Below are positions 10,763 to 13,483 of a stretch of 25,649 nt of DNA, one piece after another. The DNA comes from Pseudomonadota bacterium. Its GTDB lineage: Bacteria; Pseudomonadota; Gammaproteobacteria; Burkholderiales; Thiobacillaceae. The stretch is taken from NCBI GenBank assembly GCA_021821425.1, contig JAKACL010000007.1, positions 1 through 25,649 on the forward strand, in the 5' to 3' direction. The notes below the pieces were generated by a model. The model was not told where the DNA came from and made no database searches. It was given only the letters and a program-made list of their open reading frames with translations. Each line of letters opens with the position of its first letter. The stretch's first letter is position 1. The position numbers were made by a program, and so were the translations under genes.

Positions 10763-13462
10763 TTAGCCGCGCGCGCCGCCCGACAGGGTCACCAGCGAAC
10801 CCTTGCCGGTGTTGCCCGACGAACCGGTAATGCGGCTGTCCGGCACGGGCGGGTGCTCAACCACCTCGCGGAAGCGCATCGCGTTCATGCCCATGCCGCG
10901 CGGCTCGCCGCGTTCAGAAAGATTGCGCGACAGGCTCGAGGGGCCTTCGGTGCCGGTCACCTTGCTCATCGCATTCCAAGCGTCGCCCGTCACCGAGCGA
11001 CCGGCCTGACTGCCTTCGCCGGTGAGACGCTGCGCCGCCGACAAAGCGGTTTCGGTCGCCGCCTGCTGCATGGCGATCGCAGCCTGCGAGGCCGTGGCAT
11101 CGCGATGACGGAATTCCGGCGTGCCGGTGATCAGCCCGTCGGCCTTGTTGACGGGGCCGGTGATCCGCTCGCTGCTGTAAGCCGAACCGGTGACGTCGTT
11201 GAACTGCCGCTGCTGCGCGGCGCGCGCCGGCGTGCTGATGCTGAAATCCTGCGGCGCAGGCGGACGCGACATTTCGATCTGCGTGCGACCCCGCGCAACA
11301 AAGCGCCCGCTGGTCGCGCACTGCGACGTTGCGTTGTCGACGCCGATGTAAGGCGTGCCGCTGATGACTTCACAGGCACCGCGCGCGTCGCCGGTCATCA
11401 CCGAGCCGCCCGAACCTGGGCGGTCGCCGGTCACGGCGGTTGCCGGGATCAGTGCGCTGGTCCGGATGCGCGCTTCCTGCGCTTGCACCGCGGGCGCCTC
11501 GCAAAAGCCGTTGAACTGGCCCCGTCCGATATACGGCGTGCCGCTGATCGGCGAACAGCCGCCCGACTCGTCGCCGGTGACACGGCCCGAGCGACCGACG
11601 TAGGAGCCGGTCACGGACTGGCCGCGCCAGGTCTGGTCAACCGCAACCTTGGCCACGGGCGCAACGGGGGTGCTCACGGCGCAGACCGCTTGTTGCTGGT
11701 CTGCTCCGATATATTCCGTTCCGGTGACGGGCTTGCACCCCCCCATCTCGTCACCGGACACTTTTGGGCTGCGGCCGACCTCCGTGCCGGTCAAGGACCG
11801 GCCCGACAGCGTACGCATGGTTGCAACCTTTTGCGGCGAGGCGGTATCGCACAGCGCGCCGAAACTTTCCGACGTGTAGTACTGCGAGCCCGTAATGCTT
11901 AGACAGGAACCCGGCTCGTCGCCAGTTACCTTGTTCGAGCGGCCGATCTCGGTGCCGGACACCGGCTGGTTGCCGCGCGACGACATCACGCTGACCTTGC
12001 GGGGCGATTCCGGTGCAGTCGTGTTGCAGACTGCAGAGAACTGTTCCTGGGCGAGATATTCGGTACCGGTGACTGCGCGGCAGCTGCCGCTCTCGTCGCC
12101 CGTGAGCTTGTCGGTGTGCCCAAGCGCAGTGCCGGTGACCGGCTTGCCCGAGGCGGTATGGCTGACCACGACTTTTTCGGGCGCCGTATCGCGCAGGCGC
12201 GAGGCGGCGTAATCGGTACCCGTGATGGCGCGGTCCGAACCCGGCTCGTTGCCCGTGACACGCTCGGCACGCAGCACCGAGGTACCCGTCACTACCTTGC
12301 CCTTGGGCGTCTCGGCAAAGCCGATTTTCGCGGGCGCCGGCGCGGGGCGGGTGGGACACATTTCGTCGTAACGCTCGGCGGCCAGATATTCCGTACCGGT
12401 GATCCCGCGGCAATTGCCAGGCTCATTTCCGGTCATATTGGTGGCACGGCCGACTTCGGTGCCGGTCACCTTGCGCTCGCCCAGCGTATGGCTGACGCCG
12501 ACCTTGGTCGGCGCCGGCGCGGGGCGGGTATTGCACAGAAGATCGTACTGCTCCTTGCCGACGTATTCGGTCCCAGTAATGGGGCGGCACGAGCCCGGCT
12601 CATTGCCCGTCACCTTTTTGCTGCGCTCGACCATGGTACCCGTCACCTCGTGGCCGGCCAGTGTATGGCCTTCCTCGACCTTGGGCGGAACGGCTCCCGC
12701 CGGCGTCGCCAGGAAGGCGCGCATCCGACCCGCCGGACGGCTTTCCTTGGCAGGCTTGGTGTTGCCCGCAAGCGACTGCACCAGGCGACGCTGCATGGCC
12801 TTCTGGCGGCCGGTCGCGCCCTTGGTGATGGCTGCCTGCCAATCCTGGCCGGGCATCGTGGACGCAATCTTGGTGGCTTGAGCCACGCGCTTCAGGCCGG
12901 CTTTACCGTCCTGGGACAAGGCCGCGCGACGTGCACGTGCCAAGGCGCGGCCCGTCGGCATGCTCGATTTTTTCGGCACGTCCGAGGCGGACGACACGGC
13001 CGCTGCCGGCATCACCGATGCGGCAGTCTGCCGGGTATCGCCACAGCCGCAGCCCTTGGCCACCGACTCGACTGCTGCGCTCGCGGCATGAGACGCGCCG
13101 GACTCGACGTGCGCCTTGGGACGCACACGGCCGCTGGGCCGAGATGCCGTCGGCTTGAGCGCAGCCTTACCCGCCGTGCTCAATGCTTCACGCCGCGCAC
13201 GGCTGGCGCTGCGACCGCTGTTGGCAGCGGCGGCACGAGCCTGGGCCATGATGGCGGTCTCGGACGCTGAACTCGCTCGGCTTTCGGCCTGGACGCTTGC
13301 CGCCTGCGGCGCAGAGCGCGACGCAGCGGGACGACTGGACATCACAGACGCAGTCTTGGTCACGCCGGCTTTGCCATGCAAGGCCATGGCTTTGCGACGC
13401 TTCAATGCCAATTCGCGGCCGGAGAGGTTCGCTGTGGCGGTGCTGTCGGTGGTTAGTGTCAT
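10763..13462 (-). CDS. csoS2: CsoS2, carboxysome scaffold protein (full-length CsoS2B)
   Basis: This 899-residue, largely disordered scaffold links RuBisCO to the shell. The N-terminal region (to about 255) has four basic helical repeats of the RRxAxxxxGKAG type (near 22-32, 89-101, 176-189, 219-232) that bind RuBisCO. The middle region (about 260-655) has seven VTG-rich repeats with pattern xVTGTxVGR...VTGxExG.C..ITGTxY. The third of these lacks both cysteines. The C-terminal region (about 660-899) has shorter xTG repeats and a conserved tail GKGSLVTLSGGARG that anchors to the shell. ATG at 13462 is preferred, with GAGG 6 nt upstream; a GTG lies one codon earlier. A -1 frameshift signal in the sixth repeat should yield a shorter CsoS2A of 570 residues. 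Confidence 0.95.
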   Translation of the reverse strand: MTLTTDSTATANLSGRELALKRRKAMALHGKAGVTKTASVMSSRPAASRSAPQAASVQAESRASSASETAIMAQARAAAANSGRSASRARREALSTAGKAALKPTASRPSGRVRPKAHVESGASHAASAAVESVAKGCGCGDTRQTAASVMPAAAVSSASDVPKKSSMPTGRALARARRAALSQDGKAGLKRVAQATKIASTMPGQDWQAAITKGATGRQKAMQRRLVQSLAGNTKPAKESRPAGRMRAFLATPAGAVPPKVEEGHTLAGHEVTGTMVERSKKVTGNEPGSCRPITGTEYVGKEQYDLLCNTRPAPAPTKVGVSHTLGERKVTGTEVGRATNMTGNEPGNCRGITGTEYLAAERYDEMCPTRPAPAPAKIGFAETPKGKVVTGTSVLRAERVTGNEPGSDRAITGTDYAASRLRDTAPEKVVVSHTASGKPVTGTALGHTDKLTGDESGSCRAVTGTEYLAQEQFSAVCNTTAPESPRKVSVMSSRGNQPVSGTEIGRSNKVTGDEPGSCLSITGSQYYTSESFGALCDTASPQKVATMRTLSGRSLTGTEVGRSPKVSGDEMGGCKPVTGTEYIGADQQQAVCAVSTPVAPVAKVAVDQTWRGQSVTGSYVGRSGRVTGDESGGCSPISGTPYIGRGQFNGFCEAPAVQAQEARIRTSALIPATAVTGDRPGSGGSVMTGDARGACEVISGTPYIGVDNATSQCATSGRFVARGRTQIEMSRPPAPQDFSISTPARAAQQRQFNDVTGSAYSSERITGPVNKADGLITGTPEFRHRDATASQAAIAMQQAATETALSAAQRLTGEGSQAGRSVTGDAWNAMSKVTGTEGPSSLSRNLSERGEPRGMGMNAMRFREVVEHPPVPDSRITGSSGNTGKGSLVTLSGGARG
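11720..11768 (-). promoter_or_regulatory. Probable -1 programmed ribosomal frameshift signal in csoS2
   Basis: The minus strand reads C CCA AAA at 11768-11762, exactly in frame as X XXY YYZ (codons P566-K567). After a -1 slip the ribosome reads AGT GTC CGG TGA and stops at 11751, giving a 570-residue protein. Starting 3 nt past the heptamer, TCCGGTGACG (11749-11758) is a perfect 10-bp inverted repeat of CGTCACCGGA (11720-11729) around a 19-nt loop. Two forms of CsoS2 made by -1 frameshifting are known in alpha-carboxysomes, and the product length fits the shorter form. Confidence 0.8.
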
Positions 13463-13483
13463 CACTTACCTCGAATCTAACGG

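Follow-up and report, generated by a model that had tools for sequence, protein, structure and literature searches.

The csoS2 gene of the window (the whole stretch of 25,649 nt analysed here) very probably carries a programmed −1 ribosomal frameshift cassette, which would yield a truncated protein, CsoS2A, beside the full-length CsoS2B. The gene is part of an alpha-carboxysome locus in which Pfam matches identify the RuBisCO large subunit, csoS2, CsoSCA, CbbQ and an Sbt_1 transporter; the remaining genes of the window were read from their open reading frames (ORFs) alone. The csoS2 product belongs to the CsoS2 family (PF12288, CsoS2_M, E = 2.2e-200 in a profile search). Its nearest relative on the tree is the csoS2 of a Thiobacillus sp. 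MAG (94% identity over 707 columns), and no relative was found on viral contigs. In the order of translation, the putative cassette has GGAGGU first, then, after 9 nt, the slippery heptamer C CCA AAA and, after another 6 nt, a bulged stem-loop (Table 1). A frameshift of this kind in repeat 6 (R6) is already known from Halothiobacillus neapolitanus; the added Shine-Dalgarno (SD)-like element is a variation on this known cassette.

Table 1. Features of csoS2 and of the putative frameshift cassette in the window.
Feature	Position	Strand	Remark
csoS2, long form CsoS2B	10763..13465	-	ORF; 900 aa from GTG 13465, 899 aa from ATG 13462
Predicted short form CsoS2A, 570 aa	11751..13462	-	zero frame to the heptamer Lys, then SVR and TGA
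GGAGGU, SD-like element	11778..11783	-	9 nt upstream of the heptamer; sole GGAGG in this csoS2
Slippery heptamer C CCA AAA	11762..11768	-	in csoS2 R6
−1 frame codons AGT GTC CGG (S V R)	11754..11762	-	read from the sequence
−1 frame stop TGA	11751..11753	-	made by the Gly-Asp codons GGT GAC
Stem, 5' arm	11749..11758	-	conserved core GGTGAC 11750-11755, starting 6 nt past the heptamer
Stem, 3' arm	11720..11729	-	conserved core GTCACC 11723-11728
Inner hairpin GGG/CCC	11729..11740	-	pairs 11738-11740 with 11729-11731; stacks on the outer stem, with a 5'-side bulge of 9 nt

The first-pass annotation had placed CCCAAAA in the X XXY YYZ phase of R6, followed by a −1 frame stop after three codons, and had predicted a CsoS2A of 570 residues. 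All three statements hold: the zero frame reads agC CCA AAA gtg, the −1 frame encodes SVR before its stop, and the product comprises 570 aa counted from the ATG (571 aa from the GTG). The site combines an in-phase heptamer, a defined −1 product and a downstream structure, the latter judged by pairing and conservation only. The csoS2 ORF contains only two in-phase XXXYYYZ heptamers, the second being a run of seven G (G7, 11738-11744) in the loop of the stem, likewise in X XXY YYZ phase.

Chaijarasphong et al. reportedly described the csoS2 −1 frameshift of H. neapolitanus in 2016. Aligned to the solved chains of CsoS2B, 8b12 and 9ly8, which we take to be those of H. neapolitanus, the Pro-Lys of the window occupies the same column as the published site (Lys being residue 567 of 869), and the two sites are therefore orthologous. 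The solved chains are matched by a Halothiobacillus-like gene (L160) at 912 bits, compared to 469 bits for the csoS2 of the window. The available text of PMC11365436 locates the H. neapolitanus site in repeat 6, and that of PMC5009743 gives a CsoS2A of 570 aa including three −1 residues, i.e. of the same length and with the same end column as the product predicted here, at a frameshifting efficiency of ~50%. Both systems share the gene, the repeat, the Pro-Lys column, the −1 direction, three −1 codons, a 570-aa product and a downstream stem-loop. They differ upstream of the heptamer: H. neapolitanus apparently lacks a 5' SD stimulator, as far as the available part of a review goes, whereas the window and 55 of the 61 genes of its clade have an SD-like element, in the window at 9 nt and across the clade at 9-14 nt. 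The cassette of the window is hence a variant of the known one, not an identical copy.

For comparison, 59 loci were taken from named genome contigs, and further loci were added; searches of a family and a class found csoS2 in 64 of the 117 genomes that share the family of genome G001 and in 72 of the 369 that share the class of genome G008. The 194 records read gave an ORF in 192 cases (all but L055 and L056), corresponding to 172 distinct csoS2 genes. Among these, 81 have the R6 site, 27 a different site at repeat 4 (R4, see below), and 64 neither. The R6 count is 82 minus L103, a chance match at residue 235, outside the M region and in another clade; the R4 count is 28 minus L170, whose −1 tail differs. 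Sequences of the same clade are not independent, and the three-codon −1 tail in 81 of 81 R6 genes is part of the definition of the site. The available text of PMC5009743 predicts csoS2 frameshifting for 79 of 162 species.

The alignment of relatives at the nucleotide level, which the first-pass annotation had suggested, supports its frameshift reading: heptamer (as C CCA AAR), phase and early −1 stop recur in the 81 R6 genes, the stem in all but one of them, and the codons elsewhere drift. Within these genes C CCA AAR occurs at only 1 of 157 other Pro-Lys dipeptides, CCA makes up 7.5% of the other Pro codons, and under synonymous randomisation (80 genes) an average of 0.97% of the draws for a gene contain the heptamer together with a three-codon tail. 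The rarity elsewhere and in random draws indicates that the R6 heptamer is more than chance. In 58 full genes (>850 aa) the strongest synonymous window of csoS2 is the R6 site (0.80, compared to a mean of 0.14), in agreement with the earlier suggestion that the signal is selected in this repeat. Three codons are invariant in 58/58 genes, namely CCA for the Pro, GGT for the Gly and ACC for the Thr of the downstream VTG. The window of lowest third-position entropy starts at residues 566-567 (0.65 bits, median 1.39), and codons of identical amino acids differ in 14.5% of pairs inside the site versus 50.8% outside. The top synonymous window is again the R6 site in the other R6 clade (0.65, 16 genes). 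Two clades without the R6 site show no comparable peak (maxima of 0.295 and 0.277 with 26 and 14 genes, respectively); a group without the R6 site that comprises five sequences only has windows up to 0.75. The synonymous scan of clades with neither the R6 nor the R4 site revealed no third frameshift site.

Downstream of the heptamer, the inverted repeat TCCGGTGACG/CGTCACCGGA is perfect over 10 bp, as had been noted. The 50 nt past the heptamer fold with −20.9 kcal/mol (z = −2.35; 2 of 200 shuffles are as good), and RNAalifold predicts a 7-bp hairpin 6 nt past the heptamer from 76 sequences. The stem alignment has 75 rows, 68 of them distinct; six of the 81 genes were omitted, five with longer or divergent loops and one cut off. 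All six core pairs are kept in 68 of 68 distinct rows, and the inner GGG/CCC hairpin is paired in 91.7% of cells of these 68 sequences. The outermost pair (columns 11/49) is present in just 17 of the 68, compared to 62 and 60 for the two pairs that follow. The previously described 3-nt spacer consequently applies to the full repeat of the window, whereas the conserved stem lies 6 nt past the heptamer. An exact search finds the 6-bp core possible in 80 of 81 R6 genes (all but L052), compared to 35 of 471 other repeat positions, and pairing falls from 90% to 25-45% once the stem partner is shifted along the sequence. Five Thioalkalivibrio genes have GAT in place of GAC together with ATC in place of GTC on the opposite arm, such that the pair is kept at the expense of a Val to Ile substitution. 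The divergent csoS2 genes L052, L050 and L053 (727-782 aa) retain the R6 heptamer; the core stem of L050 requires wobble pairs, and L052, with a broken stem and an intact heptamer, constitutes a natural test of the need for the stem.

Three arguments for the stem were discarded or modified. The change from KVTGDE to KVSGDE had been proposed to help create the pairing; this does not hold, as relatives with KVTGDE or KLTGDE form the same core stem, and the Thr-to-Ser change is rejected as its cause. Covariation is likewise rejected as evidence, as shuffling is neutral for both R6 and R4: in R6, 494 of 500 shuffles reach the observed level of paired cells and 263 of 500 that of pairs changed on both sides, as the core shows hardly any variation. 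Repeats 1, 4 and 7 of the window do not form this particular stem, as claimed, but repeat 7 folds with −22.3 kcal/mol by other pairing. R6 is the repeat of lowest folding energy in just 41 of the 81 genes; folding energy alone therefore fails to single out R6 and was dropped as sole evidence.

The SD-like element was absent from the first-pass annotation. A match of at least 5 nt within 22 nt upstream of the heptamer is found in 64 of 81 R6 genes, compared to 13.1% of background positions, and the matches share a single register of 9 nt in 62 of the 81. The element is not forced by the protein, since GGAGG occurs at the Glu codon of the motif in 37 of 56 genes versus 9 of 203 in other repeats; the Glu codon is GAG in 55 of 56 genes of the clade of the window versus 110 of 203 in other repeats. 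At 9-14 nt, the element is found in only 5 of the 20 genes of the other R6 clade, to which the Halothiobacillus-like genes belong. (Of the 61 and 20 genes of both clades, the tree places 57 and 17; the remaining 4 and 3, all partial genes, were allocated by hand.) The 5-nt test finds no SD-like element upstream in three Halothiobacillus-like genes (L159-L161), which agrees with what the review says of H. neapolitanus. The motif is missing in 6 of 61 and 15 of 20 genes, and is thus not needed everywhere. According to the available part of the review, SD stimulators of −1 frameshifting sit 9-14 nt before the heptamer, and the 9 nt of the window are at the lower end of this range. E. coli dnaX, as far as the available text describes it, likewise combines an internal SD sequence, a heptamer and a stem-loop and gives two products, the frameshifted one being shorter; the gene is unrelated, however, and its heptamer is A AAA AAG instead of C CCA AAA. 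Literature searches, whose coverage did not include Chaijarasphong et al. 2016 itself, returned no report of an SD element at csoS2 or of the R4 site.

In the proposed mechanism, the 16S rRNA tail of the translating ribosome would pair with GGAGGU, and the ribosome would meet the stem with Pro and Lys tRNAs on CCA AAA. Some ribosomes would then slip back by one base, decode AGU GUC CGG and terminate at UGA. The outcome would be a CsoS2A comprising the Rubisco-binding N region and the first repeats, but not the C-terminal shell anchor, alongside full-length CsoS2B. Slipping in this organism, its efficiency and the role of GGAGGU we infer from the nucleotide patterns; the division of labour between CsoS2A and CsoS2B is assumed by analogy to H. 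neapolitanus.

It is improbable that the cassette is a relic that gives little short form in this organism. The available text of PMC11365436 describes csoS2 placed at a neutral site in H. neapolitanus, where the long form alone was detected, and reports the short form to be dispensable; yet the nearest relative of the window (L001) keeps every part of the cassette, and the 58 genes show suppressed synonymous change at the site. Still less probable is a different RNA function of the conserved nucleotides, such as mRNA stability, pausing or an internal regulatory hairpin, with an incidental heptamer. The stem and GGAGGU could cause pausing, and neither needs a change of frame, but the invariant CCA (58/58), the −1 stop after three codons (81/81, by definition of the tail) and frameshifting at the same column in H. 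neapolitanus (available text of PMC5009743 and PMC11365436) argue against this reading. Transcriptional slippage is highly unlikely: G7, an in-phase homopolymer in the loop 17 nt downstream, is present in only 10 of the 81 R6 genes and was rejected as the main route, and the A run is four residues long in the window, while the AAAG variants (24 or 25 genes) have three. Programmed frameshifting remains the preferred reading for the R6 site.

A second class of csoS2 genes lacks the R6 site. In 27 short Thiobacillus genes (within L060-L087; e.g. L065, 2364-2453) the start of repeat 4 has the context CCA AAA AAG, and hence A AAA AAG, the heptamer of E. coli dnaX itself. The site probably represents a relocated frameshift, judging from sequence comparison. 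We consider it likely that csoS2 has two frameshift places, and that short (~650-680 aa), five-repeat Thiobacillaceae CsoS2, including that of Thiobacillus sedimenti, swap R6 for this dnaX-type heptamer; a conserved, dual-coded tail of 26 residues (GGNPSHERWRNGERHPTGSLVETFRR and variants) would then give a short form of ~325-346 aa with three repeats. The −1 tail has 26 codons in 27/27 genes and ends with TGA (26) or TAA (1). The zero-frame residue at this stop varies (Asp, Ala, Val), with a third base T in 27/27; the Asp codons at other GDE motifs of these genes are GAC (49) and GAT (3). As at R6, synonymous constraint peaks at the site (top window 0.94, compared to a mean of 0.35; 25 genes). 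Third-position entropy is 0.23 bits inside versus 0.93 outside, with little difference at positions 1 and 2, and identical-residue codons differ in 7.9% of pairs inside versus 34.4% outside. Random synonymous draws give the heptamer with a 26-codon tail in 0.12%. GGAG or GAGG is found at −16..−5 of the heptamer in 25 of 27 genes (background 3.9%); the stricter 5-nt SD test gives only 7 of 27 (background 10.8%), and two registers are seen. None of the 27 genes has a start codon (ATG, GTG, TTG, CTG) among the last seven −1 codons, which makes a separate small ORF unlikely.

Twenty-five of the 27 genes are on the tree and form one clade (support 90). Its relation to the clade of the window is an open fork, and gain and loss are not distinguished. 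L127 (G118), which joins the R4 clade, encodes an 863-aa CsoS2 with duplicated repeats and has no slippery heptamer at either PKKV copy; its PKKVET motif is the same, but is encoded by CCG AAA AAG or CCG AAA AAA, with GAC, and the protein therefore does not force the R4 nucleotides. L127 may reflect either loss of the site or the state before its gain. PKKV occurs in 117 of 120 L065 homologs among the matches listed. The L068 and L066 proteins are 100% identical to those of Thiobacillus sedimenti and Thiobacillus sp. 65-1059, and a 25-base R4 pattern, searched in 399 genomes of the order, matches 3, each of which already belonged to the R4 genomes. The downstream hairpin predicted by RNAalifold begins 31 nt past the heptamer and is doubtful as a direct stimulator; shuffling gives no covariation excess for it. 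A pseudoknot between the loop of this hairpin and the GGTGG next to the heptamer was weighed by eye and dropped, as some R4 sequences break the pairing.

In the three genes L159-L161, repeat 1 opens with A AAA AAG in phase, followed by a −1 tail of 10 codons; a lone in-frame AAAAAAG is hence not evidence of frameshifting. Two genomes harbor two csoS2 genes each (L128 and L129 in G075; L086 and L137 in G097); in G097, one gene has the R6 site and the other neither site. According to the available text of PMC9164163, Thiobacillaceae keep csoS1-4 apart from cbbLS, and some such loci are doubted; inspection of the L197 ORFs by eye agrees, with no cbbLS directly upstream of csoS2.

The available text of PMC12312397 names as an open question why certain carboxysomes require two CsoS2 forms while one suffices for others. 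The putative SD stimulator added relative to the model organism suggests that lineages may differ in how the A:B ratio is set. If the R4 site is real, selection for a short CsoS2 would have acted at another position of the gene too, on a product of different length with a tail of its own, and separate signals would serve the requirement for a CsoS2 truncated at its C-terminus. The role of the short form would become testable by comparison, and the atypical Thiobacillaceae loci, doubted as 'JEEPs or junk', would be under selection for two isoforms, an argument that they are working genes.
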